From: a virus
IMG/VR virus record: IMGVR_UViG_3300017991_000060
Coordinates: 53,866 to 117,865 of that record
Direction: 5' to 3' (one strand)
DNA length: 64,000 nt
This document shows positions 1-30,347 of the stretch, piece after piece (position 1 is the stretch's first letter; each line of letters opens with the position of its first letter). Position numbers and translations under genes: made by a program. Below the pieces are notes generated by a model. It had not been told where the DNA came from. It saw only the letters and a program-made list of their open reading frames with translations, and did no database searches.

Positions 1-2230
1 ACACGACTTGCCCGCCGCTGTCCTGGATGGTCAAGGTGTTCTGGAGGACACCCGCGGCCAGCCGCCCGGCCATCTGCTGCGTGGAGCCAATCTGGAAGGA
101 GTCCACCACACGCACCTGGTCGCCGCTCCACACACCCTGGGGGCGGCGTTGGACGATGGGGTAGTAGTCCGTCGCGCCGTCCAACCGGCCGACGTTCCCG
201 TCGCTCCCCCCGAGGTCTTCCTCGCGCGCGAAGTACACCTCGGCCCTGGCCGTAGCGTACACGCGGCTCCCGATGGGCGGCGGGTCCGCGAACTGTAGGG
301 AGAACACCCCAGTGCTCATGTCCACCGCATTCCCGGTGGAACCAGGCGAGATGCTGTTGTCGTTGTCGCCGGTGAACGCACCTTCCCCATCGTCAACGGC
401 CTGTTGACCGCCGTCGGCGTCAGCGATGATGACGGACTGCGGGACGAGGGCCGTGCCTTCCTGTAGCACCAGGTTCCCGGAGAACAAGACGGCGAACCCA
501 TCGCCGGTGCCGATCTCCTGGGAGATGCGCGAAGCGCCCGTCACCTTGATGATCTCTGCGCTCTCGACGCCACCCGTCTCTTGGATCGCGTTGTAAAGGC
601 GGCTCACGCTCAAGTCCACGCCGGGGAGCACGAAGGCGCTGGAGAAGAACTTCTCGATGGACTGCCGAATGGCCGCCCACACCGTCTGGCGCGCCGCGCC
701 CGTCTCCAGAATCACCGAGGCGTCGATGTCCATGACGACGACCTGGCCGTCTACGACCTCCACGTTCGTGCAGATGGTGCGCTTGGAGTCAAGGTACTTC
801 TTCACGGCGTACTTGAGCGGCGTGTTCGAGGTGGTGAGGTTCCCCTCGGAGTCCCTACCCCACGTCGCGATCTCAACGGTGTTCAGCTCCGGCACCGTCT
901 GCTTCAGGTACGCCGAGGCGTGGGCGAGCGCGCCGTACACCTGGTCAAAGTAGGTAGCGGCGTGGGTGGTAAAGTCCAAACGGCGAACCGCACGGTCGCC
1001 AGATACGGCGAACTTGGGGGCGAAGTACCGGGCATGATCCACCGACTCCGGCGGATTGCCGCCGCTCCCGGTTTCTAGGTTGTAGAGGCGGACGGACGCC
1101 CGAGCGCCACTCGGGAGGAAGCCCTGGACCGTCGTGTCAATCGCCCCAATGTCCACGTTCCCGCGGACACCTCCACCGACACGGTACCGGAACACGATCT
1201 CCGAACCGGCCGGAGGAATCAGTCCAAAGATCCCGTCACCGAAGAGAACGATGGCCGTGTCGTCCTGGTCGTAGGTGAGCTGGTACCGCTTCTGCGCGCC
1301 GACGATGAGATAGTGAACGTCGATCACATCCCCGGCCGCCGGGGCCGCCCCGTCCGCGACGGTACCGAACCGGATCTTCGTGGTTCCGTCCACCTCCTGG
1401 ACCACATCGTATTCCAGGGGGGCGCCGGTCAGGCCGGACGCGAGGGGTGCCTGTCGCCACGTCACCGCGGCGGAAGAAGGTTGGCCGGATGGCTGCACGA
1501 GCAAGAGGATGCCATCCTCGTCGTCCGGGTCGATGACGGCGTGTAGAAGGCTGAGAGTGAACTCCTGGTTGTCCGTCCCGTCTCCAACGAAGGTATCCCG
1601 CCCGCGCCGGTCGCCTTCGGAGAACACGAGGGACGGCACCTCCTCCCACAGCTCAGCCGCCACCTCCACCGTCACGGAGCCCTCGATGGTGTTCGGATGC
1701 TCCAGGGGGAACTTCTGCCACTTCTCCCCGGTGCTAACGTGGCGGACTTCCTTGGTGACGCCCTCGGTAAACACGATGAGATCGTCGGTAGTGCCATCCG
1801 GCCAAACCGGAGCACCAGCCGGGATCTGCGTGTCCTCCAGGAGCTCGAACGTCAGGTCGCCCACCTGGACCTTCAGGCCGGAGCGTAGGGTGATGGCCCC
1901 ACCCTGAACCGGTACGGGCGTGCAGCGCACTGCAACAGACGCCGACGAGGCAGGCTTCATGCGGTAGCCCTGGGCGCGGCATAGGAGGACCATCGCCTCC
2001 CGCGTGTCAGCCAACGCAAGGAGCGAGTTGATCATCTTGCGGTCGTAGTAGAAAGCGTTCTGCGCGTGGAACCACGCGAGCACATCGAGGATGGCACCAG
2101 CGATGTCGGTGGCGAGAAGGGCGTTGTAGCGGCCGTCGCCAACGCGCCGACGCACAAGCTCCCTAGCCCGACGGGCGCACACGTCGAAGGTCCTGGCGGT
2201 GTAGTCGATCTCGATTGCGGTGCCCATCAT
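1..2230 (-). CDS. Baseplate wedge protein, gpJ / T4 gp6 family (C-terminus outside window)
   Basis: Two tandem ATG codons (2230 and 2227) open a frame that I translated without a stop to base 1, giving about 743 residues; the 3' end lies beyond the window. Around residues 330-357 it carries the signature of baseplate J-like proteins: FGDGIFG, then PPAG, then a Tyr-rich strand and GGGVRGNV. Such proteins form the wedge ring around the hub of contractile tails. Near the C-terminus (about residues 592-672) there is a DDGEG...VDMSTG segment resembling a module found in other virion proteins here. It directly follows the gp25-like gene, the usual order gp25 then gp6/gpJ. Confidence 0.85.
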   Translation of the reverse strand, partial: MMGTAIEIDYTARTFDVCARRARELVRRRVGDGRYNALLATDIAGAILDVLAWFHAQNAFYYDRKMINSLLALADTREAMVLLCRAQGYRMKPASSASVAVRCTPVPVQGGAITLRSGLKVQVGDLTFELLEDTQIPAGAPVWPDGTTDDLIVFTEGVTKEVRHVSTGEKWQKFPLEHPNTIEGSVTVEVAAELWEEVPSLVFSEGDRRGRDTFVGDGTDNQEFTLSLLHAVIDPDDEDGILLLVQPSGQPSSAAVTWRQAPLASGLTGAPLEYDVVQEVDGTTKIRFGTVADGAAPAAGDVIDVHYLIVGAQKRYQLTYDQDDTAIVLFGDGIFGLIPPAGSEIVFRYRVGGGVRGNVDIGAIDTTVQGFLPSGARASVRLYNLETGSGGNPPESVDHARYFAPKFAVSGDRAVRRLDFTTHAATYFDQVYGALAHASAYLKQTVPELNTVEIATWGRDSEGNLTTSNTPLKYAVKKYLDSKRTICTNVEVVDGQVVVMDIDASVILETGAARQTVWAAIRQSIEKFFSSAFVLPGVDLSVSRLYNAIQETGGVESAEIIKVTGASRISQEIGTGDGFAVLFSGNLVLQEGTALVPQSVIIADADGGQQAVDDGEGAFTGDNDNSISPGSTGNAVDMSTGVFSLQFADPPPIGSRVYATARAEVYFAREEDLGGSDGNVGRLDGATDYYPIVQRRPQGVWSGDQVRVVDSFQIGSTQQMAGRLAAGVLQNTLTIQDSGGQVV

Positions 2231-2234
2231 ACCC

Positions 2235-2723
2235 TCACAGGTTCATCTTCGGGAAGTCGGCCGCCGCATTGTACACCCTCCGCTCGGGATCACCGTACAC
2301 GGAGAAACCGACTGACACGTACACGGCGTACGGGTTCACGTCAGGGTCCCAGTCCACGTTGACGGCAACCACCTCGGCGCGAGGCTCCTGGTCCGCGAGG
2401 TCCTGGCGCGCGTAGTAACCGATCTGCTGAATGGTGATGTCGTCCAGCGGCTCGAACAGAAGGTACGGCAGCTCGCTTCCGATGTCCGGGTCGTAAGGTA
2501 TCGACCGCTTCGGCGTGGAAAGGATGTTGACGAGCGACGTAGCAATAATCGCAACGTCGTCCTGAACCGGCCCCAGGACGCTCTGGGGTGTAGCGCCGAA
2601 CGGGTACCCGGCCCCGCGGTGAAGTCCGCGCGTTTTGGCAAACACCCTACGGTCCACCTGGGGAGGCGCGAGTCGCTGCGATTCGTACCCAGTCGTCAGC
2701 TCCGGGGGGATCGGGTCTGCCAT
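2235..2723 (-). CDS. Baseplate wedge protein, gpW/gp25 family
   Basis: This 162-aa protein has the gp25-family core: SIPYDPDIGSELPYLLFEP in the middle, followed by an ITIQQIGYYARQDL helix and the strand EPRAEVVAVNV, ending in a beta-rich C-terminus. In T4 and P2-like phages this protein joins the inner baseplate to the sheath and tube. Its ATG (2723) overlaps the last base of the spike gene stop, and its TGA is followed closely by the gpJ-like gene, so the two are probably translationally coupled. The length is close to the usual 130-160 aa of the family. Confidence 0.85.
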   Translation of the reverse strand: MADPIPPELTTGYESQRLAPPQVDRRVFAKTRGLHRGAGYPFGATPQSVLGPVQDDVAIIATSLVNILSTPKRSIPYDPDIGSELPYLLFEPLDDITIQQIGYYARQDLADQEPRAEVVAVNVDWDPDVNPYAVYVSVGFSVYGDPERRVYNAAADFPKMNL

Positions 2724-4986: not shown

Positions 4987-5334
4987 TTACGTCACCTCGC
5001 CGCGCTTCGCAGCGCGGAGCAGAGCGGCCGACACATGTACCGGCTTCGGGACCTTCAGGCGCAGACCCGGCACCACCTGTTCCAGCGGGAAGTAGATTTG
5101 GTTCGCGTTGGCGATCACCCACCAGAGGGCGTGGTTCCCCTCACCGTAAGCACGGCGCGCGAAGAGTTCGAGTTGCCCTTCCTCCCCCTCCTGGACGACG
5201 TACTCCTCCTCATCTCCGTCCATCTGGATGCTCATGTTGTCCCAGACGCCAAAGAAGCTCTTGCCGCCCTTCACGAAGAGGCGCGTGGCCTTCAAGCGCG
5301 ATGTGAACGGTAGGTCCAGCTCGAACCGTGCCAT
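4987..5334 (-). CDS. LysM-like baseplate/tail protein, gp53 or gpX type
   Basis: This 115-aa protein has a C-terminal LysM-like pattern, HALWWVIANANQI followed by FPLEQVVPGLRLKVPKP, as in P2 gpX and the LysM-like domain of T4 gp53. These proteins sit at the junction of tube and baseplate. Its N-terminal half (GGKSFFGVWDNMSIQ, then EYVVQEGEEGQLELFARRAY) is the usual lead-in to the LysM segment. ATG 5334 overlaps the stop of the preceding gene by one base; a GTG one codon earlier is possible. It is followed without a gap by the hub gene. Confidence 0.75.
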   Translation of the reverse strand: MARFELDLPFTSRLKATRLFVKGGKSFFGVWDNMSIQMDGDEEEYVVQEGEEGQLELFARRAYGEGNHALWWVIANANQIYFPLEQVVPGLRLKVPKPVHVSAALLRAAKRGEVT

Positions 5335-8650: not shown

Positions 8651-8653
8651 TTC

Positions 8654-10073: not shown

Positions 10074-10091
10074 CAATCACCTCTCTCTGGT

Positions 10092-10697: not shown

Positions 10698-13600
10698 CTA
10701 GCTGCCCGCCGCGAGCACCTCCGCGAAGTCCGCGCCCGTGGGCGTCAGAATCAGGTCGTAGTTGATGAACTCCGCCGCCCTCACCGGCTTGATGAAGAGC
10801 TTGGCGTTGACGGTGAGCTGATCCACATCCGTCGGGGTGGTCGTCGAAGCGTCCACGACGATGTAGGCGTCGGTCAGCCCGCGCTGCGAAATGAGCGGCT
10901 TCAAGATGTCGTTCAGGGTCGTCGCGATCTCGCGCCACAGGATGGCGTCGTTGATCTCGAACGGGAACTCCTGACTCGCGGCGTCGAGCAGGTTCATGAT
11001 GACGTTGACGGTCCACATCACGTTGATGCGGTCCGTCGCGCTCGGGGTGCGCTTCGCCGTCTGCTGTCCGTAGAGCACGAGCCCGCGGCCTTCCTTGCGG
11101 ACGATGGGGTTGCAGATGTGAACCGTCGTTCCCACAAGGCCCTGGAGGAAGTCCCGGTCCTCCCTGGAGACGCTGTAGCGAACCGCCGTGGCCGACACCC
11201 GCCCGCGCCGGAACCCGGCGATGGGGAACCACGCCTCGGGCGTGAGGGAGAGGAGCCTCGCCATCTCGCCGTCGGGCGGCTCCCAGGTGTTCTGGGCGGT
11301 GTACTGGTCGTAGTTCTCCAGCCACGGCATGATCGACGCGAGGTACGGCGTGTCGATGGCCGAGAGCGGCGGGTACGGCACGAGGACCGTGGGGCGCGCG
11401 ATCCCGCCGACGGAGGCGGAGTTGAAGTTGCCGTTGTAGAAGTCGTCGTGGTCCGAGGGTTCCGTCGCGTCGGGGATCGGGATGATGCCCATCGCCCGGC
11501 GGCCGGGGCGCTCGCAGAGCTGCTGCATCCCCTGGATCACCTGACGGTGCCACTGGCCGGGGCACATGATCCAGTTGAGTGGCACCACGTCCTCGTTGCG
11601 GAACATCTGCATTCCGGTCGTCACCTGGCCGACCTTCGTGCCCACGATGTCCGCGATGGTGAACGCGCCGCCCATGGCGAGGACCTGGGAGCTGCCCCCG
11701 AGCACGGCCGGGGTGAGCGCGCCGGTGTAGCCCGTCGCCTCGGCCCGCACGAGGTCGCTCCCGTTGAGCTCGTCGTTCACCTTCGCGATGAGCTCGTCGA
11801 GGTCGGTGGCCTGCCCGAAGGACTCCTCCGTCCCGGTGTCGAAGAGGACCCGGAGACGTAGGGTACCGGCAAGGGACGGGTCCTCATCGATCTCGGCCCG
11901 GAAGCCCTCTGCCACCGTGCTCCTCTCGTTCCCGATGTCGCCGGGGTAGCGCGCCGTCAGGTGGAGGACCACCTGGGAGGCCGCCACGAACACCGCCTCG
12001 TCGGGGAGCGGGGCCGAGGTCCACTTGATGGACGCCCCGCCGTCGCGGAAGTCGAGGGAGTTCTCGGGGTCCGTCGAGAGCGCGACGTTCTGGCTCCAGA
12101 AGTCGGCATCCGCCGAAGCCCCGAGGTCCGCGAACGTCACCTGGGGATCGCCCGCACCGGCGTTCGCCGCCTGGGCTCCCTGGAACCCGACGATGCCGTC
12201 CTCGGCGCGCCTGTAGGGCGCGTGGGAGAGCTCGCCGGTGAACACCACCTCGATGCCGTCGCCCCACCCGAGGATGTCCGCAGGGAGGTACACGGCTTCG
12301 ATGGCGAGGTTGTCCGCCACGTCGAACTGCCGGTCGCCGGACTCCACGAGATCGAGCTCGAAGGCGAAGGCTCCTATGGTGTGGTCGAGCCAACACGTCC
12401 CGTTGTAGTCGTTCGCCGCGGCCGGTGCGTCGAGGTTCATCCCGGCCGTGTCCGGCGTCGTGTCCGCGCGGAACAGCGGGCCGGTGCCGCGGAGAGCGCG
12501 GCGGGCCTTGTCCCACGGGGTGGTCGTGGACGTGACCTTGATGGTGGCCGCCGCCGTGATCGCCCCGGAGGCCGTGATCGACCAGGCCCCGGTGGTGTAG
12601 TCGATGGCACCGCCAGCCGCCGCGGCGGCCCTGGGGTCGCCTCTCGGCCGATCGAGCCAACCGCCCACACCATCGTCGTAGTAGGTTTCGGGGGAGCCGC
12701 CCACGTCCGAGATCACAAGGACCGCGGAGCCGGGGGAGATCGGGCCGATGAGGCGCTGCGCGCCGGGGTCGGTGTCGGTCGCGTTGGCGTCGCCGCCAGC
12801 ATCCGAGGGCTGCACCACCTCGTCGATGGAGGCCACCCCGTTCTCACCGGCGACCGCGCCGCCGCCCATGTCAATGACCTGGATATCGTACTCCGCCGTG
12901 AGGTCGGCTCCGGTGAGCGCCGGGAAGCTGACGCCGCCCACGGGGTCCCAGGTGGTGACGGCCCACTGGCCGGTGCGGTAGTCGATGGTCCCGGTGACGG
13001 GCACACCCGTCCCGTCCGGGCCGGTGCGCCAACCGCCGAACCCGTCGTCGTAGACCGGCGGGGGAACGGGGTCCGTGGGGTGGGTCGGGGTGAGCACCAC
13101 CGTGCCGGGAACGATCCAGCCGCCCAGGGTGGTGAGGTCGGGGTTGGCGGAGGCCGCGCCCGCTACCGCCGTGGGCACCTTGCCGATGACGTGCTCCATC
13201 GGGACGGTGATGACCACCTTGTTCGCGTTGAAGAATCCTGGGGCGAGCGAGACTTGGCTCAGGTTCCCGGCATAGGCACCTTGACCCGCGGCCGTCGTGC
13301 CGACGCTCTCCTGGGCACCGCGCACCCAAATGGCGTCGATGGAGCCGCCGCCGAAGAGGGTGGCCGCGGAGAGGAGCACTCCCCAGTTCCCCGTGCGGTA
13401 GTCGATGAACCCGACGTGCGCCCCCGCGGACGGTTCGAGGATGCCGACGCCCGCGCCACCGGGGCCGTACGAGAGGTCACCGGAGTCGGAGAGCTCGGTG
13501 TAGGTGGCCGCGCCCGTCTCGCACCGGATGGTGAAGGTGCCGGGCACCACGGCCATGCCGACGGAGCCGCGGACCTCGGCCAGCCCGGAGAGGGTCCCGT

Positions 13601-14306
13601 CGATGGTGAGGAGGTTCTCCCAGACGCGATTCGCCGCGTTGGAATCCATCTTTCCGTAGAACCGCCTGCCAGTGGCCCCGGAGGTCGAGGAGGACGCGCT
13701 GTCCGTCTTGGCGAACGCGCCGTCGTCGCCGCCGGAGAACCCTACGCGGAGGACCTCGCCGGTGATCGGGTCGAGCGTCTCCGCGGGGAAGGCCGCGCCG
13801 ATCCCGCTCGCCAGCTCGATGGTGATGCGGGTCGAGTTGTTCCGCAGCGTCGTCACCACGATCCCGTTGTCCTGTGCGAGATGAGACTCGACGAGCTGGT
13901 CCTGGAAGTACACCAGGATGTTGTAGGACTCGGTGCCGTTGTGGAGGATCGAGTACTTCAGGTCGTCGTTCGCCCAGGTACCGGGGCTCGACGCGACGAG
14001 CTTCGAGTGCGCGAGGCCATTATCCTGGAGCAGCTCCGCCTCCGCGCTCGCGAGGTTGTCACCAGCGACGCGTACGAAGCCGAGCTGGGAGCCTCCGAGG
14101 AAGTACCGGATGGCGGCGCGTTGCGCGTACATCCTGTCCTTCGGGCGGCCGTAGTAGTTGACGAAGTTGCCTTCGTCCGGGAACCAGTTCATCTCGTTCA
14201 CCGGACCTTTGGTGGCCGGGCCAACGCACCCCATGATCGCCGTGCTGATCTGGGGAGCGTAGACGGCCTGATCGAACACCCTGATATTGATGCCTGGTGC
14301 TACCAT
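10698..14306 (-). CDS. Contractile tail sheath protein, greatly enlarged
   Basis: The N-terminus (VAPGINIRVFDQAVY, STAIMGCVGPATKGPVNE) and the last 300 residues (NWIMCPGQWH, FRRGRVSATAVRYSVSRE, RDFLQGLVGTTVHICNPIV, YGQQTAKRTPSATDRINV) are typical of T4 gp18-type sheath subunits, including the conserved C-terminal domain that gives sheath contacts. At 1202 aa it is nearly twice T4 gp18 (659 aa). The excess is an insertion of about residues 250-890 that carries three copies of an IDY-x-TG beta module (near residues 254-329, 399-475 and 523-596) plus further beta-rich segments, presumably displayed on the outer tail surface. ATG 14306 follows the stop of the previous gene by three bases. Confidence 0.93.
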   Translation of the reverse strand: MVAPGINIRVFDQAVYAPQISTAIMGCVGPATKGPVNEMNWFPDEGNFVNYYGRPKDRMYAQRAAIRYFLGGSQLGFVRVAGDNLASAEAELLQDNGLAHSKLVASSPGTWANDDLKYSILHNGTESYNILVYFQDQLVESHLAQDNGIVVTTLRNNSTRITIELASGIGAAFPAETLDPITGEVLRVGFSGGDDGAFAKTDSASSSTSGATGRRFYGKMDSNAANRVWENLLTIDGTLSGLAEVRGSVGMAVVPGTFTIRCETGAATYTELSDSGDLSYGPGGAGVGILEPSAGAHVGFIDYRTGNWGVLLSAATLFGGGSIDAIWVRGAQESVGTTAAGQGAYAGNLSQVSLAPGFFNANKVVITVPMEHVIGKVPTAVAGAASANPDLTTLGGWIVPGTVVLTPTHPTDPVPPPVYDDGFGGWRTGPDGTGVPVTGTIDYRTGQWAVTTWDPVGGVSFPALTGADLTAEYDIQVIDMGGGAVAGENGVASIDEVVQPSDAGGDANATDTDPGAQRLIGPISPGSAVLVISDVGGSPETYYDDGVGGWLDRPRGDPRAAAAAGGAIDYTTGAWSITASGAITAAATIKVTSTTTPWDKARRALRGTGPLFRADTTPDTAGMNLDAPAAANDYNGTCWLDHTIGAFAFELDLVESGDRQFDVADNLAIEAVYLPADILGWGDGIEVVFTGELSHAPYRRAEDGIVGFQGAQAANAGAGDPQVTFADLGASADADFWSQNVALSTDPENSLDFRDGGASIKWTSAPLPDEAVFVAASQVVLHLTARYPGDIGNERSTVAEGFRAEIDEDPSLAGTLRLRVLFDTGTEESFGQATDLDELIAKVNDELNGSDLVRAEATGYTGALTPAVLGGSSQVLAMGGAFTIADIVGTKVGQVTTGMQMFRNEDVVPLNWIMCPGQWHRQVIQGMQQLCERPGRRAMGIIPIPDATEPSDHDDFYNGNFNSASVGGIARPTVLVPYPPLSAIDTPYLASIMPWLENYDQYTAQNTWEPPDGEMARLLSLTPEAWFPIAGFRRGRVSATAVRYSVSREDRDFLQGLVGTTVHICNPIVRKEGRGLVLYGQQTAKRTPSATDRINVMWTVNVIMNLLDAASQEFPFEINDAILWREIATTLNDILKPLISQRGLTDAYIVVDASTTTPTDVDQLTVNAKLFIKPVRAAEFINYDLILTPTGADFAEVLAAGS

Positions 14307-16422: not shown

Positions 16423-16845
16423 TCAGAGGAGGTCCTTCAGCTCACGGTCCAGGTCCTCCCTGGTCCTCGGCCTCGGCCCATAGTGGAAGGATGATTCCCC
16501 GAATGCCCGCACGGCCAGATAGTAGGTCCAGGCCATCATGCGATGCCACCAACGCGAATACCATGGGGCACGCTTCGCGTCCTCTCGGAGAGCCAGGTAA
16601 AACTGCCAGTCCGCCTTCTCGCGGTCGCGCTCCGTGTGCCCGATCCAATAGTTGAAGTCGTGGTGGTCACAGCTCGCCGTGAACATGAACTCCGGCACCG
16701 GAACCTTCCCGCCCTTCGGGCCGCAGCCGTTGCAGATGAGGTCCCGCTCAAGGGGCGCCAGATCGCGGAACCGAACGGGGGTCCCACCACCGAGTCCGTC
16801 CCCGGCGGCGTGCATCTCGCGGCGGCGCTCATCGAAGGCAGCCAT
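16423..16845 (-). CDS. Phospholipase A2-like protein in the tail cluster
   Basis: The 140-aa protein has LICNGCGPKGG (Cys38, Cys41), then PEFMFTASCDHHDFNYWIGH with Cys59, His62-Asp63 and Tyr66, then R74 and AD (78-79) leading into a long helical region, and ends with YYLAVRAFGESSFHYG. The C-x2-HD-x2-Y core followed by Gly matches the active-site helix of the phospholipase A2 fold, where His-Asp is the catalytic pair. Bacterial and phage relatives of about this size exist. No signal peptide or transmembrane segment is visible. Its place among neck and tail genes suggests a virion-carried enzyme or a structural reuse of the fold; activity is an inference. The ATG at 16845 stands five bases after the preceding stop. 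Confidence 0.65.
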   Translation of the reverse strand: MAAFDERRREMHAAGDGLGGGTPVRFRDLAPLERDLICNGCGPKGGKVPVPEFMFTASCDHHDFNYWIGHTERDREKADWQFYLALREDAKRAPWYSRWWHRMMAWTYYLAVRAFGESSFHYGPRPRTREDLDRELKDLL

Positions 16846-16850: not shown

Positions 16851-18077
16851 CTACGCCTCCACCTCATCGATCCCGTAGATGACGATGGCCGCCCACGTCC
16901 CGGGGAACTCGATACCATCCACCAGATAGACGCGCATGTACATGAGCTGAGATGACAGGAGCGGGATGGAGGACATGTACTCGACCCGATGGATGTTGAC
17001 CTTGAGCGCCCCCATCCCACGGGGGGCAGCGCCCCCATGGGGCTCGATCTGCGGGTAGCTTCCATGCGCCCAATTGATGAGATCCCACATCGTCTTGACG
17101 TAGGTCGGGCGGCGGATGGGCTGGCCGTTCGGGGGCGCGGCGCCAGCGTAGACGTTCATCGTGATGGTATCCGCGAGCTCCACGTCGTCCGACGCTTGGA
17201 CCTCCACACGGTCGATGATGGCCTTCCGGCCCGGCGCCGGAACCACCACTACGCACGCGCACCCATCCTCCGGGACGTAGTAGTAGGTGGCCGTGATGGC
17301 GGCGCCGTCGGCCGGTGCCTGGTAGAACGTGATGGTCCCGGTCACGTAGTCGATCTCGTAATCGCCGCCGGAATCCGCGCCGAACGCACGTTCGATCTGC
17401 TCGATGCCGCCCACCTTCACGATGGGCACGAACCCGGAGAGAGGCCCAGCGAAACAGTTGGGGTCCGTGTCCGGGTCGGGGTACTTGTACCCGTCGCCCA
17501 TCGCGCGGTAGGCGCCATCCCAATTTGGGATGTCGTCCTCCTCCGAGACCTTGCCGTGGCTCAAGTCGAGGATGCGCTCGGCCGCGTTGGCGTTCGTCCC
17601 GTGGGCGAGGTCGAAGTCCGTGGTGGCACCGTCGCCGGTTCCCACGGCCTCGTCCTCGACCTTGGTGGCGTCAGACCGCCACGTCGTCTTGTCGCAGAGG
17701 TTGATGGAGAAGCCGTAGACCCGGTTATGCTCCAAGCCATCTGGCCGTCGGACATGCACGCCGGGCTTGTTCGCCACCACCACGGGCCGAGCTGCTACCG
17801 CCGAGGGTGAATCGTCGTGTGCCGCGATCAGCCCGCCCGCCGGGGCTGTCTCGTCGCCATCAAGGGTGGTCTTGTCCCCTGCCGGGAGGTCGGCCCGGAA
17901 CACGATGGTCGCCACCCCGCCCACGGTCCTGCCCGCGCCATCCCGCACGCCACCCGACACGTCCACGCGGTCCACGGCCACGGTGATCGCGGATGCGCGT
18001 ATCTCCTCCACCAATCGGGCCGCATTGACGGCACCCCCGGGGAAGTCCACGGAAACATCGTAGCTGAACGAGGCCAT
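16851..18077 (-). CDS. Virion structural protein with one IDY-TG module
   Basis: The 408-aa protein is beta-rich and has no domain I can name. Residues 214-268 contain GGDYEIDYVTGTITFYQAP followed by AITATYYYVPEDG, one copy of the module repeated in other virion proteins of this phage. The C-terminal part (AIIDRVEVQASDDVELADT, then SQLMYMRVYLVDG and TWAAIVIYGIDE) looks like a second beta-sandwich. ATG 18077 is preceded by GAGGT and overlaps the upstream TAA. Together with the three genes before it, it may form neck, collar or tail appendages. Confidence 0.5.
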   Translation of the reverse strand: MASFSYDVSVDFPGGAVNAARLVEEIRASAITVAVDRVDVSGGVRDGAGRTVGGVATIVFRADLPAGDKTTLDGDETAPAGGLIAAHDDSPSAVAARPVVVANKPGVHVRRPDGLEHNRVYGFSINLCDKTTWRSDATKVEDEAVGTGDGATTDFDLAHGTNANAAERILDLSHGKVSEEDDIPNWDGAYRAMGDGYKYPDPDTDPNCFAGPLSGFVPIVKVGGIEQIERAFGADSGGDYEIDYVTGTITFYQAPADGAAITATYYYVPEDGCACVVVVPAPGRKAIIDRVEVQASDDVELADTITMNVYAGAAPPNGQPIRRPTYVKTMWDLINWAHGSYPQIEPHGGAAPRGMGALKVNIHRVEYMSSIPLLSSQLMYMRVYLVDGIEFPGTWAAIVIYGIDEVEA

Positions 18078-18721: not shown

Positions 18722-19825
18722 CTAGTAGGCGGACGGCATCCGGAGGTACAGCGTCTCACCGGGGAACAGGACGTGGCTGAACGCGATCTGCGTGGCGCTC
18801 ACCCAGTACGCGTCCCTGGGCGTGCCCGCACCGACACCCCTGGACTCCTGCCGGCCGTTGCGGTCGATGATGATCCGCTCGTCGTCGCGGAACTCCGCTC
18901 CGCTGGCGGGGAGAGCGATGGTTCCGTAGGACGCGGCGAGTGTGGTCCGCGCTCCGGCTGTGGTGAAGGCGCCGGTGTTGATGTTGAGAGGATCTCCCGC
19001 CGCAATGATAGCGCCCGCCGTGATGTCGAACTCTTTGAACGGCAGCCTGGGGGACGAACTGCCGGGGTCGATGATCGATGGGAGAGCGCCGCCCGAGAGG
19101 AGGGCACCACGGTTGAGCCCGTAGAAGTTCCGTTGCCTCGGGAGGCTGAAATGGTACGTGCCTGCCGGCAAGGTGGTCGCGGTGATGATATCCGTGGTCT
19201 TGTCGATGTAGACGAAGGACATCTGGAGGTTCTCGCTACCGACCCCGGCGATGGCCACCCCATCCGCCGAGCCCGAAACCACCTGGAGGAGCCCGAAAAT
19301 CTGCTCCCCGGTGGGGGTCTCGGGGTGGTCGTTTGTGCCAGCGTCGAGGATCGAACACCGGTTGAGGAGCACACCGTCACCGTCACTGGCGGTGCTCAGG
19401 CCAACGCCCAAGGTGCCGGCGACGGTGAAGTTAGCCTCGTCGGCCGCCACGTAGCCGCCGTCCTCCGTGGACGCCGGGCCTACCGCCACCGTGCCGGCAC
19501 CGCCCACCAGAAGGGTGGCGGGGATGAGCGCCCCGCTGGCCGCCGCGCCGAGGACGAAGTCCTGCGTACCAGGCAACGGGGGCATGTCAAAGGCGAGGAT
19601 CTTGTCATGGATCTGTTTCAGCCCGAAGTTGTCGAGGAGGGCATCGAACCAGTTCCCCGCCCCCGCGCCGTCATTGTGCCGCATGAGCATCGAGCGGATG
19701 GCGTTCAGGTCGAACTCCATGTGCTCGCTGCCGGCACCCGGCGTCTCCAGGCTAGCGCCCGGGGAGAAGGTGTCGTCGTAGGTCCGCGAGGACCTGAGTT
19801 GAGTCGTTTGTTCCAAAAGGCTCAT
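18722..19825 (-). CDS. Virion protein with C-terminal module shared with its neighbour
   Basis: The 367-aa protein has a polar N-terminus (AIRSMLMRHNDGAGAGNWFDA), a long beta-rich middle and a C-terminal module: LPASGAEFRDDERIIIDRNG, then RGVG, AYWVSATQIAFSHVLFPGE and LYLRMP. The neighbouring 195-aa protein ends with the same pattern, so the two share a domain and may act together as neck or fibre components. No enzyme motif is visible. Start is ATG 19825; the stop TAG is followed by the GTG-started fibre-like gene. Confidence 0.45.
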   Translation of the reverse strand: MSLLEQTTQLRSSRTYDDTFSPGASLETPGAGSEHMEFDLNAIRSMLMRHNDGAGAGNWFDALLDNFGLKQIHDKILAFDMPPLPGTQDFVLGAAASGALIPATLLVGGAGTVAVGPASTEDGGYVAADEANFTVAGTLGVGLSTASDGDGVLLNRCSILDAGTNDHPETPTGEQIFGLLQVVSGSADGVAIAGVGSENLQMSFVYIDKTTDIITATTLPAGTYHFSLPRQRNFYGLNRGALLSGGALPSIIDPGSSSPRLPFKEFDITAGAIIAAGDPLNINTGAFTTAGARTTLAASYGTIALPASGAEFRDDERIIIDRNGRQESRGVGAGTPRDAYWVSATQIAFSHVLFPGETLYLRMPSAY

Positions 19826-19834: not shown

Positions 19835-20422
19835 CTACACCGGCGATGGGGAAGGCGGCGCGATAGGTGCCCTCACCATCACTTGGTTGCCAGCGAAGAT
19901 CGTCCGATCCAGCGCGAGCTGCACCGTCGAAACCCATTGCGCTTCCCCGAACCCTACCCCGCGCCCACGCCTCATTTCCTGCCCGTTCAGCGTCACTTCG
20001 ATGCGCCCGTCGTCCTCGAAATCGAGGCCGGACGCCGGAAGGAGGATGACAGGCTGACCGGGTGCCTGTAGAGCCGGGGTGTCTCCAATCACCGTCGCCG
20101 CTCCGCCAGCGTACGACCCGTCCTGGATGTTGATGGGCATGTTGGGCGGTACCGGAGCGCCGGAAAACGTGAGCGTCACCTCTACGAGCTGCCCACCGGC
20201 GTTCACCTTCGCCTGGAGGTCCTCGTCGAGCTCGCTCTCCGCCACCTTGGTACCGGACTCCGACGCCGGGTCGCCCGCCATGAGATCACGGTCCTTCGGG
20301 CCGATGGCGCGCGTGTTCCTGAAGGTGCGGCTGTCGAGCGTCCTCTGGGCGGCGTCGAGCGCGGCCTGGGACTCGCCGTAGGCGTCCTCGCGATCCTGCT
20401 CTCGGATCACCTTCTCCGTCAT
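19835..20422 (-). CDS. Virion protein, short relative of the following gene
   Basis: The 195-aa protein has a charged helical N-terminus (VIREQDREDAYGESQAALDA) and a beta-rich C-terminal half: LPASGLDFEDDGRIEVTLNG, RRGRGVGFGEAQWVSTVQLA, then TIFAGNQVMVRAP. The C-terminal pattern is also found in the next protein. The start ATG 20422 overlaps the TGA of the head-completion-like gene in an ATGA junction, so translation is likely coupled. Function is unknown beyond a structural role. Confidence 0.45.
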   Translation of the reverse strand: MTEKVIREQDREDAYGESQAALDAAQRTLDSRTFRNTRAIGPKDRDLMAGDPASESGTKVAESELDEDLQAKVNAGGQLVEVTLTFSGAPVPPNMPINIQDGSYAGGAATVIGDTPALQAPGQPVILLPASGLDFEDDGRIEVTLNGQEMRRGRGVGFGEAQWVSTVQLALDRTIFAGNQVMVRAPIAPPSPSPV

Positions 20423-21189
20423 CCGATGTACCCCATCGGCGGGTACGAGGTGAGCGCCGTCTGGAGCTTCTCCTCGACCTCCCGCCACTCTTCCTTCGCC
20501 TCCGTGCGTAGGTCGGCGGCGTCCGTCTGAATCTCCCCGGCCGGTCCTGGGATCGGCCCCCGACTCCCCTGGACACGGGCGAGGATCATCTTGGCCGCGG
20601 CCACACTCGCCCGACGGAAGTAGTGCTGCTGGTCGTACGTGATGTCCTGTAGGCGTCGATCACGCGAGGCGAGGACCATCGCCACGACGCTCTGCCCAGG
20701 CGCGGTGATCCAGAGCTCCCGAGTTTCCGGGTTCCAATGCCACGCGGGCCTGGTGCCGAGCATCCGCTCGTAGGTCCGCTGGCCCATGCTGAACTCGAAG
20801 TACAACCGAGGACCCTGGTACCCCCACCTGGAGATGAACACGTCGCCCGACGGCGTGGTGGCGAGGCCGGAAGTGCGCTGGTCGCGGTCCACGAAACGAA
20901 CATCAAGGATGTTCCGAACGAACCCGATGGGGTACCGCCGGTTGTCCAACCTGGCCTCGTCCGCGAAGAAGGTGATGCGGTAGCCGCCCTCCCCGGTGGG
21001 GGAGGGCACCTCGAACGGGTACCACGCCTTCATCGGCCGGTACATGTTCCAGAGATCGAGGGCGCGGGAGAGGGCAGCGTCCAGGTTGCGTTCGGAAAGG
21101 TCGGGATCCACCCCATCCCCTCCGAGGTCGCCCAGGATGATCTGCCGCCACTCGTCGCGCGTGCGATGGGTGGGGAGTGTCTCGCTCAC
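20419..21189 (-). CDS. Putative head completion / neck protein (gp13-like position)
   Basis: The 256-aa protein lies three genes after the major capsid gene, where head-completion and neck proteins are encoded. It begins with GTG (21189). The N-terminal helices (RDEWRQIILGDLGG, LDAALSRALDLWNMYRP) precede a central region with YRITFFADEARL and FVRNILDVRFVDRDQR; the C-terminal helices (YFRRASVAAAKMILARV) end in a polar tail. T4 gp13-type proteins have similar size and alternation, but no diagnostic motif is visible, so position carries most of the weight. Confidence 0.5.
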   Translation of the reverse strand: MSETLPTHRTRDEWRQIILGDLGGDGVDPDLSERNLDAALSRALDLWNMYRPMKAWYPFEVPSPTGEGGYRITFFADEARLDNRRYPIGFVRNILDVRFVDRDQRTSGLATTPSGDVFISRWGYQGPRLYFEFSMGQRTYERMLGTRPAWHWNPETRELWITAPGQSVVAMVLASRDRRLQDITYDQQHYFRRASVAAAKMILARVQGSRGPIPGPAGEIQTDAADLRTEAKEEWREVEEKLQTALTSYPPMGYIG

Positions 21190-21202
21190 GCGACCCTCCT
21201 AC

Positions 21203-21712: not shown

Positions 21713-21722
21713 GCCTACCTCC

Positions 21723-22271: not shown

Positions 22272-22346
22272 CTTTCTCCGCCTCCTATGTAGGGTTCCGA
22301 GCCTTCAGTCTAGCATACCCCCAGAGAGCGGTTCCAGTACACGGGA

Positions 22347-22370
22347 CGAGCCCGACCGAAGCCGGGCTCG
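22347..22370 (-). terminator. UUCG-capped hairpin downstream of the capsid gene
   Basis: On the minus strand the arms CGAGCCCG and CGGGCTCG pair perfectly, extended inward by a G-U and a C-G pair to a UUCG tetraloop. It lies 41 bases after the capsid stop at 22411. UUCG loops make very stable hairpins. There is no clear T-run, so it may slow polymerase or protect the abundant capsid mRNA 3' end, while allowing some read-through into the neck genes. Confidence 0.65.
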
Positions 22371-22410
22371 CACACCTACGCGATTGATCGCAACCAGCCT
22401 AGAGGCCGTC

Positions 22411-23871
22411 CTAGAGGCCCGTCACCTGGAAGGTGGCGATGTGGTCGCTGTCCACGATCTTGATGGCGTACTCCGTGAGGAGCGCGAAGTCCTTGCGGAA
22501 GGCGCGCGTGTGGATCGGAGCCTTGTAGAGATCGATGTAGTTCCCCATGACGGCCGCGGTGGAGACGAACTCCGCGCCGCGGTGCGTGAGGAGGCCCTGG
22601 TCGCGGGCGAACGTCGGGTCCGCGAACACGTCGATCCCTTGCTTCGTCAGGCGGCCGACGTACCGCGGCCCGGCCACGCCGTCGTTCGCGTACTTCTGGC
22701 CCTCGAACCCGTCCTGGTAGGCCACCGCGAAGAGGATGCTCGGGTGGATCACCATGACGTTCGGGTGGACCGTCTGGGTGGCTTCCCACACGAGGTCCTG
22801 GAGCCGCTGGATGAAGATCGCCAGCGTCTTCAGGTGGTCGCGGTAGGAGACGCCGACCGGGGCCGTGTTGTCCCAGACCAGCGCGCCGCCCGTGGCGTTG
22901 TTGTAGAGGGTGTTCACGACGTGCTTGAACTTCTCCTGGTTGATGAGCCGCGCGCCCGCCTCGATGATGGTGGGCTCCGCGTCGATCCCGAAGTCGTTCA
23001 TGAAGTCGATGACGGCCTGGTGCGACCAGGAGGCACCGAGCGCCCGCGGGAGCGCCTCAACGGTTTCCGCCCGGAGGAGGATGCCGTACTCGGGGAGCTG
23101 GAGGGCCGCCTCGATGTTGTACTGGTAGTCGCACGCCACCGCGCCCGAAGTCGCCGCCGCGAAGCGGACGCTCACCGCGCGGGTGAGGTAGTCGATGGAG
23201 TTCGTGAACCCGCCGCCGGGCGCGCCCACGTTGCCGATAAGGTTCCCGTTCCGGTCGTCGCGGATGACCTGGGTGCCGTCCGTCATGACGAAGGTGCCGG
23301 GGATGATCGGCCCGTACCCGACGTTGACGTTGTAGGTCGCGGAACCAGCCACGCCGACAACCTCGCCGGGGATGTTGTTGCTGCTGAAGTCCTGGGTGCC
23401 GCGGAACCCGGCCAGGGCATCGAACATCTTCGCGCGGTCGGGGATGTTGCCCTTCCCGCGCTCCGTCACGATGTCCAAGTAGTGGATACGGGCGCTCTTG
23501 CTGGGGAGCGGCTGCACCGAGATCACCCGGTCGATGATGTCGTCCGCCTGGGCGCTCGCGATGAGGGCGAGTCCGTTCTTGATCCAGGCCGGGATCGACG
23601 CCCGCGAAGTCTCCTCCAGCCTACCGGCGGAGAAGTCACCGAGGGTCTGCTTCAGGAAGTTCTCCATCAGCATCGCCGTGCGGACGGCCTTCATGGGGTC
23701 GATGTGCCCGGTGTGGTCCTCCAGGATCTCCATCGGGTTCATCGTCTTGGAAATGTTGTAGTCCGGGAGGCTGAACCTCCGGTACTTCTCGACCAGCGCC
23801 CGCTTGGACTGCACGAGACGTTCCTCGATGCTGCGGGCGCGCTGAATCTGCTTCCTGGTGGCGAGAGGCAT
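22411..23871 (-). CDS. Major capsid protein, T4 gp23-like with inserted module
   Basis: The 486-aa protein follows the protease and scaffold-like genes, as in T4-type head clusters. The N-terminal 45 residues are basic and end in FSLPDYNISKT. Later come ASIPAWIKNGLALIASAQ, then VEALPRALGASWSHQAVIDF, LKTLAIFIQRLQDLVWEAT and HPNVMVIHPSILFAVAYQDG, an HK97-fold gp23-like outline, ending with ALLTEYAIKIVDSDHIATFQ. Residues 189-252 (IPGTFVMTDGTQVIRDDRNG ... SIDYLTRAVSV) are an inserted IDY-type module. The protein forms the icosahedral shell. A stable hairpin follows the gene. Confidence 0.9.
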   Translation of the reverse strand: MPLATRKQIQRARSIEERLVQSKRALVEKYRRFSLPDYNISKTMNPMEILEDHTGHIDPMKAVRTAMLMENFLKQTLGDFSAGRLEETSRASIPAWIKNGLALIASAQADDIIDRVISVQPLPSKSARIHYLDIVTERGKGNIPDRAKMFDALAGFRGTQDFSSNNIPGEVVGVAGSATYNVNVGYGPIIPGTFVMTDGTQVIRDDRNGNLIGNVGAPGGGFTNSIDYLTRAVSVRFAAATSGAVACDYQYNIEAALQLPEYGILLRAETVEALPRALGASWSHQAVIDFMNDFGIDAEPTIIEAGARLINQEKFKHVVNTLYNNATGGALVWDNTAPVGVSYRDHLKTLAIFIQRLQDLVWEATQTVHPNVMVIHPSILFAVAYQDGFEGQKYANDGVAGPRYVGRLTKQGIDVFADPTFARDQGLLTHRGAEFVSTAAVMGNYIDLYKAPIHTRAFRKDFALLTEYAIKIVDSDHIATFQVTGL

Positions 23872-23904
23872 ATCCTCTTTCCTCCTTCTTTCTACGAAGC
23901 CCTA

Positions 23905-25479
23905 CTACTCGCCAAGCGACGACGCCCGCGCCTGGCTCGCCTCGCGCTGACGCATACGATGCGCCTTCGCGCGGCTGAACGTGTCGGCTTCAGCCGACTC
24001 GCTCAGGGTGTCCAGGGGCGCGCCGTCCGATTCCGTCAGCGGGCCGGTGGGCGCTCCGGGAGTGGCCGTGCTGGTCACACTGGCCTTCCTGGTCGCCGCC
24101 GTCCCGAGCGGAGCCGAACCGCTCGCCTCATGGATCGCGTGCACGAGAGCGTTGGCCTCCGCCTCCAACACCTCGACATCCTTGCACTCCGCGAGGCGGC
24201 CTTCCAGCCTACGGAGCTCGGGGTGATCCCGCATGAGCTCCTCCATCTTGTGCTGGACCGCCATCTCGGAAACCAGTCCGCGGAGGGTGGCGTTCTCCCG
24301 CTCCAGGCTCCCGATCTCGTCCTGGAAGTAGGATTCCGCCGCCTCACGCTTCCGGCGTTGCCGTGCGATCTTCCCGATGTTCCGCGGTTTGGAAAGCCGC
24401 TTTCCGGTCTTGCCGCCCTTGCCCTTCGACGCCTTGCGAAGCGCGGCGCGCTTCTTCTTCTTGCCCTTCGCAGCGATGCGCTGGCCGTCGTCACGGGCTG
24501 GGCCGATCTTCAGCCCGTACTTCCGGGCGTACTCGGCGCGGTGCTTCGCCGCCCAGGGCATGTCGAACTCCTCGGAGTCGGGGTCGAACATCTTGGCGAA
24601 CATGGACCGCATGGAGCCAGCGCCCTTCGGACCCTTCTTCTCGTCGAGGTCGTACTCGTCGTAGTCCTCGGTGAGCAGGTTCCGCGGCCCGTAGGTGACG
24701 GACTCGGCGGCGGCCTTCCGCTTGGACTTCTTCGGCTTGGTCTTGGTCATACCAAGCATCTTGGCGATGTCGCGGCGCTTGCCGGTGCGCTTCCCGGTCT
24801 TGCCGCCCTTGCCCTTCGACTGCTGGCGCTTCTTGCGCCGGAGCTCCAGGGCCTTCTTCCCGGCGGCCGGGACGCGAAGGCCGTCGCGGGCCATCTTCAC
24901 CTGGAGGCCGTACCGCCGGGCGTACTCGGCGCGGTGCTCCGCCGCCCAGGGCATGTCGAACTCCTCACTCTCGGGGTCCCACATCTTGGCGAACATGGAC
25001 CGCATGGAGCCAGCGCCCTTCGGACCCTTCTTCTCGGTGATGTAGCCGCCCGTCTCGAACACGTCCGCGAAGGCGGCCTCAGCCAGCTCCTCGGGGGCGG
25101 CGAGGGCGTACATCGCCTGGTTGAGCTGGGCGCGTACGTAGGGGTCATCCCGCGGGTCCTCGTACTCGGACTCGTACCCTTCGGTGAAATCCTCGATGTC
25201 GAGGTCCTCGTCCTCGTCGTACTCCGCGAGGAACCCGGCACGCCGAACGAGGTCGCCCTCATCGTCGTACTCTTGCATCTCGATCAGGCGGTCCTGGCCG
25301 TTGAAGATGAAGTGGACCCAGCCGCCCGTGCTCCTATTGTCGGCCCGGAACGCGTAGGCCGGTTGCAGCACACTCATTTCAAAAACCTCCTCTTCCTCCT
25401 CGTCGTCGTCCCACTCAGGGCCGCCGGGAGGGGCGTAGGCCCTTTCGGTACCGTACCAGGGATCGGCTGGGAAGCCCAT
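23905..25479 (-). CDS. Putative prohead core / scaffold protein with internal duplication
   Basis: The 524-aa protein lies between the protease and the capsid gene, the usual place of a scaffold. It alternates acidic stretches (residues 24-33, 85-112) and very basic ones (210-255, 337-378). Residues 149-241 and 280-372 are two copies of one unit: KKGPKGAGSMRSMFAKM, SEEFDMPWAA, HRAEYAR, then SKGKGGKTGKR. At 385-430 is a coiled coil (SLERENATLRGLVSEMAVQH) and the end is Ser/Thr/Ala-rich. The motif AES appears after each copy (258-260, 381-383). Scaffold function is inferred from position and composition. ATG 25479 has a GAGGTGA ribosome site. Confidence 0.6.
   Translation of the reverse strand: MGFPADPWYGTERAYAPPGGPEWDDDEEEEEVFEMSVLQPAYAFRADNRSTGGWVHFIFNGQDRLIEMQEYDDEGDLVRRAGFLAEYDEDEDLDIEDFTEGYESEYEDPRDDPYVRAQLNQAMYALAAPEELAEAAFADVFETGGYITEKKGPKGAGSMRSMFAKMWDPESEEFDMPWAAEHRAEYARRYGLQVKMARDGLRVPAAGKKALELRRKKRQQSKGKGGKTGKRTGKRRDIAKMLGMTKTKPKKSKRKAAAESVTYGPRNLLTEDYDEYDLDEKKGPKGAGSMRSMFAKMFDPDSEEFDMPWAAKHRAEYARKYGLKIGPARDDGQRIAAKGKKKKRAALRKASKGKGGKTGKRLSKPRNIGKIARQRRKREAAESYFQDEIGSLERENATLRGLVSEMAVQHKMEELMRDHPELRRLEGRLAECKDVEVLEAEANALVHAIHEASGSAPLGTAATRKASVTSTATPGAPTGPLTESDGAPLDTLSESAEADTFSRAKAHRMRQREASQARASSLGE
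24588..24643 (-). repeat. 56-bp exact direct repeat, copy 2 (as transcribed)
   Basis: This stretch is identical base for base to 24981-25036, 393 bases away, which is 131 codons, so the reading frame is kept. It encodes the KKGPKGAGSMRSMFAKM block of the scaffold-like protein. Flanking sequence is also nearly identical, showing a recent in-frame duplication. Confidence 0.9.
24981..25036 (-). repeat. 56-bp exact direct repeat, copy 1 (as transcribed)
   Basis: Partner of 24588-24643 inside the same gene. A further 27-base exact match that encodes the GKGGKTGKR block lies in each copy (near 24403 and 24793 on the plus strand). Confidence 0.9.
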
Positions 25480-25490
25480 GCCCGTTCACC

Positions 25491-27770: not shown

Positions 27771-28204
27771 CGGAGCCTGCCCCTACCTTCCAAGTACTGC
27801 CTGAACGGAGACGACGGAATCGGCCGCTTCCGTCGCATGAACGAGAAACGCGGCACCCCAGCCGACGCCTCCTGGAGCTGACGTTGACGCCTCCCCTTCG
27901 CCACGAACCGCTGTAGTGGGGTCGGCTCGTCGATGTCCGGTATCTCCTCGATGTCGCCGGTCCTGGTGTCGAACCGGATGTGCTGCGCCGCGCTGAGGGA
28001 CTCCTTCAAGTCGCGCTCCCTCGGAAGGTGGATGAACCACGCGAGGTGCTCCTGAAGGTCCATCCGGATGAGGTAGGTTTCGGACGCCGTGAAGTCGTCG
28101 TTCGGCACCTGGAGCACCACGCGGGGGTCCGTCGGGTGATCGCGATGGAACAGGACCACCTTCGGGAGATCACCCACCTTCGGCAACGGGAGCCGCTTCG
28201 CCAT
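27767..28204 (-). CDS. Hypothetical protein upstream of the protease
   Basis: This 145-aa protein has a beta-rich N-terminal half (DLPKVVLFHRDHPTDPRVVL, then ETYLIRMDLQEHLAWFIHLP) and a basic C-terminal half (LQRFVAKGRRQRQLQE, FSFMRRKRPIP). Its stop overlaps the protease start (ATGA), so the pair is probably coupled. A prohead-associated role is possible, but I recognise no family. ATG 28204 has a GAGGT ribosome site inside the end of the preceding gene. Confidence 0.4.
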   Translation of the reverse strand: MAKRLPLPKVGDLPKVVLFHRDHPTDPRVVLQVPNDDFTASETYLIRMDLQEHLAWFIHLPRERDLKESLSAAQHIRFDTRTGDIEEIPDIDEPTPLQRFVAKGRRQRQLQEASAGVPRFSFMRRKRPIPSSPFRQYLEGRGRLR

Positions 28205-28207
28205 CAC

Positions 28208-29281
28208 CTACCTCAGCAGAGAGTCCCATTCGAGGAACACGTCAAGCGGACGGTACGAACATCCGTGCTCGTAGTTCACGGTGACGTTGCCAGCCACAGC
28301 GGCGGCGTTCAGATCGACGTGCCACGCCCCGGTCTGGTAGTCCACCTGGCCGTCGCCTCCCGCGCCGACCAGACGGCCCGCACCGTCGTCGCGAAGCACA
28401 CCGGCCCCGCCGGTGAGCGTGACGACGATGGAGCCCGGAACCAGGTTCTCGTGCCCGTTCGGCCAGAGGGGAGGCGCGGCGGCGTTCGACTCCACCACCG
28501 TCTCACCACCTACGGCCGTGAATAGGGTCGCGCCAGCCACGGCCATGCCAGCCCACCGCATCCGGAGCAGTTCGCGGTTGGCCTCGGCCACCCCACCCGG
28601 CATCGGGAGGAGGTGCGTCGCCCGGCCCTTCTGCGCCAGCGAACCGGCCTGGGCCGGGGCGAACGCGGCGTACGTCGGGACGTGCTGCGTCTCCTCGATG
28701 CTGTCTCCGCCGACCACGTTCAGGACCCGCGTGCGCGAACGGAACTGCACCCCGCCAACCGTGAAGGCCGCCGGGAGCGGTGCGCGCTCGAACAGATAGG
28801 GTTGGACGTTCACGCCGCCGTTCAGCGTCTCGCCGCCGGACAGAGGACCCTCAGCTACGAAGGCTTCCGAGGGTACCAGCGTGATGACGGCCGCCGTCAC
28901 ATCCGCGATGGTGTACACGCCAGCGTTGAGGGGGCTGGTCACGACGAGCCGCATACCGGGGGCGTAGCCGTCCGCGATGAACGAACCGGCGCTCCTGGTG
29001 ACGGTGCTCGGCGGACCGGCCGCCCAGGTCAGCGTCGGAGGCCCGGCCGCCACCACTTCGGTAGGGCTGGGAAGTCCATCGCTGGCCTCGTTGAGTTCGG
29101 TGGGCCGGTCCACACGGGCATGGACCTGAGCCCCGACCGGGATATCCTCGAACACGAGAACGCCCGGCTTACGGCGAATGACGGGCCGCTCGCCGTTCGG
29201 AAGCACCGTCGCCAAGGCGAAGGTCCCGTCCTCCCCGCCGAGGCGGAGGCGCGCGTGCCTTTCGACTCTGATGACGCTCAT
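28208..29281 (-). CDS. Virion structural protein with IDY-TG module
   Basis: The 357-aa protein is beta-rich throughout. Residues 95-140 (TRSAGSFIADGYAPGMRLVV then YTIADVTAAVITLV) form a small domain often found in phage structural proteins. Residues 279-340 (LVPGSIVVTLTGGAGVLRDD, then GDGQVDYQTGAWHVDLN, VTVNYEHG) are one copy of the module that also occurs in the sheath and capsid. It lies between the large prohead-type proteins and the protease, so it may be a head decoration or appendage protein. Confidence 0.5.
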   Translation of the reverse strand: MSVIRVERHARLRLGGEDGTFALATVLPNGERPVIRRKPGVLVFEDIPVGAQVHARVDRPTELNEASDGLPSPTEVVAAGPPTLTWAAGPPSTVTRSAGSFIADGYAPGMRLVVTSPLNAGVYTIADVTAAVITLVPSEAFVAEGPLSGGETLNGGVNVQPYLFERAPLPAAFTVGGVQFRSRTRVLNVVGGDSIEETQHVPTYAAFAPAQAGSLAQKGRATHLLPMPGGVAEANRELLRMRWAGMAVAGATLFTAVGGETVVESNAAAPPLWPNGHENLVPGSIVVTLTGGAGVLRDDGAGRLVGAGGDGQVDYQTGAWHVDLNAAAVAGNVTVNYEHGCSYRPLDVFLEWDSLLR

Positions 29282-29312
29282 CAGGTGCCTCCTTCAGTGA
29301 GGGCCTCAGCTC

Positions 29313-30347
29313 CTACAGCCGGGGGTCGTTCGTGTACCCACCGGCGGGGAAGCCGCTGTACACCTCGTCCACCCGGAAGGGGTCCTCGCCGTGGTAGAAC
29401 CACTTGCAGACGAGCGCGGTCTGGGTGGCGCTCCGAGCCTCGCCCACGAGGGCCATCCGCGTGTCGGCCACGAAGCCCGCGCCGAGGGCCGCGTTGAAGA
29501 GCTCGGGGAGCGCGCCCATCGGGTCCATGAGCTTGCACCCGCCGCCCTTCGACACGAGCGAGGCGAAGGGGTTGAAGGTGTAGGCCGCGACGAAGTTGCC
29601 CGCGAGGGGGCCACCCGAGGAACCCGTCACCGTGACGATGCCGGTGGCGTAGTCGATGGAGCCCTGGACGGCTTCGTTGCCGGCCGTCGTCTCCACGATG
29701 TTCCCCTTGCCATCATCTGCGAAGGTGAGCGCGCCCGCGTTCGTGTTGAACGTGAGGGAGCCGGGGTTCACCCGCCCGAACCCGAGCTGGAACGTCTCGG
29801 GGAAGGCACCGGCGCACGCGATAGTCGTGGCCTGGGCCGGGCTCACGAAGTCGGTGAAGTCGGTGAAGTCGTAGGTCATCATCACGGGCTCGGTCGCCGC
29901 GCCGCCCCAAGTGAAGTCCACGAGGCCGTTCACGTAGTCGATGGAGCCGCGGACGTTCGCGGGGATGCCGTCGTCGTGGAGCACGCCGTTGCCATCATCC
30001 ACGATGTCGGCCAACGCGCCGCCCTCGACGATGCGGACGGTGCCCGCCACCACGGACCGCCACTGAAGCTTCCCGACGTAGCGGTTGCCGCCGACCGCGA
30101 AGGCCGTCAGCCACTCGTTCGTGCGGGTCTTCTGCGACTCGCCGTGACGAAGACGGAGGAGAGCGCATTCCTCGCCCACGTTGTGCGCGTGCACCGCGCT
30201 GACGTAGGAACGAACTCCGTTGGTGGGAACTGCCGGGGCGGCCTGAAGCACCTGCATGTTGCCCTGGGGCGGCACGCCCGTACGGTGCTCATCGTACCGA
30301 TCCCGGTGCTCGACGTACTGAATGCCGTTGAACACGTAGTTCGACAT
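29313..30347 (-). CDS. Virion structural protein with two IDY-TG modules
   Basis: The 344-aa protein carries two tandem module copies: residues 100-161 (AGTVRIVEGG, DDGNGVLHDDG, RGSIDYVNGLVDFTWGG) and 194-259 (NPGSLTFNTNAGALTFADDG, VQGSIDYATGIVTVTGSSGG). The N-terminal 95 residues and the C-terminal 80 (GALPELFNAALGAGFVADTR, TQTALVCKWFYHGEDPF) flank them. No enzyme motif is seen. The same module in the capsid and sheath suggests a surface protein of the particle. Confidence 0.5.
   Translation of the reverse strand: MSNYVFNGIQYVEHRDRYDEHRTGVPPQGNMQVLQAAPAVPTNGVRSYVSAVHAHNVGEECALLRLRHGESQKTRTNEWLTAFAVGGNRYVGKLQWRSVVAGTVRIVEGGALADIVDDGNGVLHDDGIPANVRGSIDYVNGLVDFTWGGAATEPVMMTYDFTDFTDFVSPAQATTIACAGAFPETFQLGFGRVNPGSLTFNTNAGALTFADDGKGNIVETTAGNEAVQGSIDYATGIVTVTGSSGGPLAGNFVAAYTFNPFASLVSKGGGCKLMDPMGALPELFNAALGAGFVADTRMALVGEARSATQTALVCKWFYHGEDPFRVDEVYSGFPAGGYTNDPRL

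Follow-up and report, generated by a model that had tools for sequence, protein, structure and literature searches.

A putative capsid insertion domain repeated in sheath, baseplate and head-cluster proteins of a group of uncultured myoviruses

Why would one phage carry the same small beta module on its head, tail and baseplate? The question is raised by a stretch of 64,000 bases (hereafter the window; bases 53866-117865 of the 117,865-base IMG/VR record IMGVR_UViG_3300017991_000060; G+C 66%). A sequence-only reading of it had seen nine copies of one pattern in six virion proteins and called the module mobile. Here, we find the repeat to be real and relate it to the insertion (I-) domain of the major capsid protein. 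We think it probable that a capsid I-domain spread through the putative virion proteins of this group of phages, where its copies would serve a docking or stabilising role.

Read on the minus strand, the left part of the window holds structural genes of the myovirus type. They encode gpI-like, baseplate-J and further baseplate proteins, the tape measure, tail tube, sheath, adaptor, a gp23-type capsid protein, the prohead protease and the portal. The genes that matter most here are as follows.

2..2230, minus strand: Baseplate_J/gp6-like baseplate wedge protein (Baseplate_J 8.3e-7; phrog_219 8.7e-31)
10698..14306, minus strand: tail sheath protein, 1202 aa (phrog_23 tail sheath, 3e-48, in two stretches)
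22411..23871, minus strand: gp23-type HK97-fold major capsid protein, 486 aa (Pfam Gp23, 6.9e-18)
28208..29281, minus strand: 357-aa head-cluster protein, function not assigned, with a C-terminal module that is kept in orthologues
29313..30347, minus strand: 344-aa head-cluster protein, function not assigned, with two modules, both kept in orthologues

A profile search of the PDB with the capsid protein matched both T4 gp23 and P1 gp23. In the sheath, an insert of about 600 aa separates conserved N- and C-terminal parts. The whole baseplate-J open reading frame (1090 aa) extends past the window's left edge, beyond which the next gene encodes the gpI-like protein.

Other genes of the window are recorded here in their own right. 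At 16423-16845 (minus strand), within the structural cluster, lies a gene for a 140-aa protein with a CDHHDFNY motif that matches prokaryotic phospholipase A2 (PF09056, E 6.5e-8, above the cut-off), which is unusual for a phage virion region. The 484-aa protein at 39268-40722 (minus strand) matches head decoration and tail fibre PHROGs, with a YadA stalk match below the cut-off, and is possibly a trimeric fibre. Similar C-terminal stretches (NGQE-RG-G...WVS--Q-A), noticed by eye in the adjoining proteins at 18722-19825 and 19835-20488 (both minus strand), suggest that these neighbours carry paralogous domains. Between the capsid and protease genes, a 524-aa protein (23905-25479, minus strand; no PHROG match) contains an internal repeat twice, KKGPKGAGSMRSMFAKMxDPxSEEFDMPWAAxHRAEYARxYGL.

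Is the repeat real? In a leave-one-out search, a profile built from the other core copies was run against all 1639 six-frame open reading frames of the 117,865-bp record; it recovered eight of the nine segments with E-values from 2.7e-3 to 4.9e-10 (14.5-36 bits), against a best score of 9.3 bits among 1400 residue-shuffled virion proteins. A pattern scan and alignment placed the segments at the residues first proposed. The ninth, in what had been called the 408-aa protein (417 aa here), was rejected as a module: at 17277..17369 (minus strand) it is a half motif (11.6 bits, E 0.021) with neither the P-G-T strand nor DDGxG, and Pfam DUF2460 (E 1.5e-9; 38.0 bits against a cut-off of 30.4) covers the same residues. 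That half motif in a DUF2460-like protein does illustrate that a hairpin alone can recur, as would be expected if the pattern were a chance or convergent IDY-x-TG beta-hairpin in unrelated domains. For the other eight segments a chance match is ruled out by profiles and shuffles, and with full-length reciprocal profiles, strand order and the match to P1 described below also speaking against it, we regard this explanation as extremely improbable.

The repeated unit is a beta domain of about 85 residues with the pattern t-x-y-x-G-x-L...P[VI]-x-P-G-[TS]-V...DDGxGxL.G...G-x-[IV]-[DN]-Y-x-T-G...V-x-x-x-Y, starting about 20 residues upstream of the P-G-T strand. Three copies had been overlooked (a second in baseplate-J, one in the gpI-like protein and a degenerate fourth in the sheath), so that the total comes to ten clear copies in six proteins (capsid, sheath, 344-aa, 357-aa, baseplate-J and gpI-like) plus the degenerate one. 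Their positions in the window are listed below, with leave-one-out (LOO) E-values where these apply.

1..46, minus strand: start of baseplate-J module 2, which continues outside the window (record 53726-53911; L003:13723-13914)
239..448, minus strand: baseplate-J module 1, residues about 595-665 (LOO E 1.8e-3; own slot clade on the tree)
11952..12269, minus strand: degenerate sheath module 4, residues about 680-785 (alignment with the sheath of a distant relative, L051; strand order)
12276..12419, minus strand: possible sheath half module (GTCWLDHTIG...AVYLP), residues about 630-677, suggested by eye and by DSSP order
12519..12740, minus strand: sheath module 3, residues about 523-596 (LOO E 8.5e-8 for 524-596; strand order in the model)
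12879..13115, minus strand: sheath module 2, residues about 398-476 (LOO E 3e-7 for 399-455; strand order in the model)
13320..13550, minus strand: sheath module 1, residues about 253-330 (LOO E 1.3e-4 for 254-326; strand order in the model)
23113..23379, minus strand: capsid module, residues about 165-253, core 189-253 (LOO E 8.6e-6)
28259..28444, minus strand: 357-aa protein module, residues 280-341 (LOO E 4.9e-10)
29571..29771, minus strand: 344-aa protein module 2, residues 193-259 (LOO E 2.4e-8)
29862..30053, minus strand: 344-aa protein module 1, residues 99-162 (LOO E 2.7e-3)

Profiles built without them found baseplate-J module 2 (E 4.7e-7) and the full copy in the gpI-like protein (E 5.1e-7); 344-aa module 1 reached E 1.1e-20 with a wider profile that includes module 1 itself. 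The window's own sheath module 4 gave no significant profile match; it aligns with a clear fourth module (residues 506-566, 38 bits) in the sheath of L051, which is shorter and 32% identical.

In capsid proteins, the I-domain is regarded as a feature of the HK97 fold. On the strength of profile homology, the repeated module can be identified as the I-domain of P1/T4-type HK97-fold major capsid proteins, an identity that the sequence-only reading had not recognised. Built from non-capsid copies alone, a profile found this segment in 13 of the 16 capsid proteins tested (E 6e-20 to 4e-4). One row of one alignment (A9) carried a single wrong letter in the N-terminal flank (EY to EW); the search of the 16 capsid proteins, based on unaltered rows, leads to the same conclusion. 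In 14 complete cultured-phage genomes, the same profile found one site (E 1.2e-6 or lower) in 12, including P1, and never a second copy; wherever checked, the site was the capsid protein. Conversely, a capsid-only profile recovered eight non-capsid copies, spread over five further proteins encoded in the phage's own genome, sheath module 1 being the sole non-capsid copy it missed there, and direct comparison of the capsid and non-capsid profiles gave a probability of 99.5 (E 2.3e-22). Against the PDB, the capsid-module profile matched P1 gp23 at residues 226-301 (E 2.7e-5), and the best match of the non-capsid profile was again P1 gp23 (residues 227-298, E 0.0017); a first, shorter module profile gave nothing significant there, and only the extended domain reached P1. 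In alignments with gp23-type capsid proteins and P1 gp23, the window's capsid copy sits before the spine-helix segment of the HK97 fold.

The recurring module has no Pfam model of its own. Pfam Ig-like families (Big, I-set, FN3) gave no module match, apart from one Big_8 match (E 2) in L051. As to DDGxG being a calcium loop, troponin C matches in the PDB had E-values above 1 and were dismissed as chance. In PHROGs, several stretches of phrog_6128, a 1200-aa family with no function assigned and listed as unknown, match the module, which suggests that multi-copy proteins exist elsewhere too. The I-domain name can now be given to the recurring module, phrog_6128 included.

Structure prediction is consistent with this identity. 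For the sheath insert (residues 205-800), an AlphaFold2 model from 25 sequences reached pLDDT 88.6 and pTM 0.88; the model of the capsid protein is poor as a whole (pLDDT 54), with the beta domain of the module at pLDDT 73-87. Strand order agrees between the modelled capsid segment and the sheath units and, together with profile homology, suggests a fold common to the copies. The earlier proposal that proteins of head, tail and baseplate have one domain in common is supported by the reciprocal profile tests and the matching strand order. In Foldseek searches, the sheath model had no PDB match below E 0.001; in BFVD its matches were the tail sheath of an uncultured phage (E 3e-4) and, as a weak one, the capsid protein ctDOT22 (E 0.06 despite a probability of 0.98). 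Because the capsid model is poor overall, its own Foldseek result serves as weak support.

How did the copies come to be where they are? Scans of IMG/VR yielded 12 capsid relatives and 31 sheath relatives, and modules occupy orthologous positions across about 30 related contigs. Nearly all contigs covering a given slot carry it (three in the sheath, one in the capsid, two in the 344-aa protein, one in the 357-aa protein, one to three in baseplate-J and one in the gpI-like protein), while four sheath matches, among the most distant ones, had no module match. Over whole records, a profile (A3) gave 11 matches in the phage's own record, one of them the rejected half motif, and 12 in a relative of 143 kb; since A3 contains the own copies, E-values for these are not independent. 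Another related contig, L070 (G019), has a module at residues 478-544 of a 623-aa protein (open reading frame from 3134, minus strand) that has no clear homologue among the window's proteins. Searching phages by tblastn with the 344-aa protein and the L051 sheath modules gave no usable match, and a profile search of genome contigs with the capsid alignment found no relative.

In an unrooted tree of 73 modules (95 columns), the 13 slot labels need 15 changes, close to the minimum of 12 and far from a mean of 52 after shuffling. The two 344-aa copies pair as sisters, and so do sheath modules 2 and 3, a pattern that suggests tandem duplication within both proteins. The word mobile does not apply in a present-day sense, for copies group by slot rather than by phage, stand in orthologous positions and share DNA stretches of at most about 20 bases. 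Since identity among the copies within the genome is only 13-36% and little DNA is shared, and since grouping is slot-wise and positions are orthologous, the spread appears ancient; the copies were, on this sequence evidence, inherited vertically and diverged in place. The capsid protein is the most parsimonious source over the genomes sampled, the tree being unrooted, because the capsid is the sole site in the cultured genomes tested.

The same data bear on another history, in which the module is a widely exchanged general phage domain, imported repeatedly from other phages, with the capsid protein just one recipient. Such traffic would accommodate phrog_6128, where one family is matched by several copies, and an unrooted tree that does not nest the non-capsid copies within the group's own capsid clade. 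It sits poorly with slots common to the whole group and with cultured genomes that carry their sole copy in the capsid protein, and we consider it unlikely. Under the preferred reading, an ancestor of these uncultured myoviruses would have had I-domain copies inserted in or appended to its sheath, baseplate-J, gpI-like and two head-cluster proteins, along with tandem duplication within the sheath and the 344-aa protein, and each copy would then have diverged in its own slot.

What might the copies do? In P1, the I-domain is rich in beta-sheet, protrudes outward and touches the P-domain of the adjacent capsomere (PMC12810830). By analogy with P1, and from their inserted or appended positions, a docking or stabilising role is the most likely one: each copy may face outward, presumably in the sheath and baseplate as well, and touch neighbouring subunits, with shell docking or stabilisation as the result. 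Particle stabilisation, one of two functions floated in the sequence-only reading, fits the P1 report (PMC12810830). The other, adhesion, would make the shared job of these homologous modules a weak binding to host or environmental glycans, as with Ig-like phage domains. Such an aid to adhesion has been discussed for extra beta domains of sheaths and for the Ig-like domains that five classes of virion protein carry (PMC9230969, PMC9022992, PMC7602432), and every copy here lies in an insert or an appended region. Against this, the residues common to all copies (G, D, Y, T-G, P) belong to turns and core, the loops differ from copy to copy in length and sequence, leaving no common ligand site visible, and no carbohydrate-binding module family is matched; we therefore find adhesion doubtful as the common function. 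Less probable still, in our estimate, is that the I-domain is a standard surface tile, displayed by the proteins on the outside of head, tail and baseplate, through which one partner can coat or lock the whole particle, be it a decoration protein, a polymer of the host or the environment, or the neighbouring tiles themselves by pairing of edge strands.

Homologues of the I-domain in the sheath, two baseplate and two head-cluster proteins tie the evolution of head and tail together by way of one domain, and provide a testable example of a capsid part reused over a virion. Both I-domains and Ig-like domains in multiple virion proteins are already known; a limited literature search found no report of sheath or baseplate proteins with a homologue of the capsid I-domain.

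Among known systems, Ig-like domains are a single fold class that phages carry on proteins of the head, tail tube, fibre and baseplate (Fraser et al. 2006, as cited in PMC9022992 and PMC7602432). These belong to several sequence families (Big_1, Big_2, I-set, FN3), whereas the window's phage uses one family, that of the capsid I-domain. Type 3 multi-domain tail sheaths, like the sheath here, consist of a core with extra beta domains in an insert; the extra beta-sandwich domains of type 3 sheaths are called Ig-like in the survey that describes them (PMC9230969), whereas those of the window's sheath are homologous to the capsid I-domain. The capsid proteins of the T4-like phages Mel-JY01 and immuto had no match at the I-domain position. 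A module at the same capsid position, with no second copy detected in the genome, is found in Listeria phage LIS04, Bacillus SP-15, Pseudomonas QdP_Psa3, Xanthomonas phiXF1, Rhizobium TM39, Yersinia YerA41, Cobetia Carin-5, Thermus phiLo, Escherichia EP_H11 and Streptococcus GXN1, and the wider profile found a single copy in 11 cultured phages as against 11 or 12 in the own record and the 143-kb relative. Closest to hand is the I-domain of P1 gp23 (PDB 9ukm, 9vl4; PMC12810830), which is homologous over the module, to capsid and non-capsid copies alike, and has the same location in the capsid protein; P1 has one detected copy per genome, the window's phage about ten copies in six proteins. Most related phages carry this small beta-rich domain once, as a knob on the major capsid protein, whereas in the window's group it is present at least ten times, and the whole particle seems to be built with its copies.
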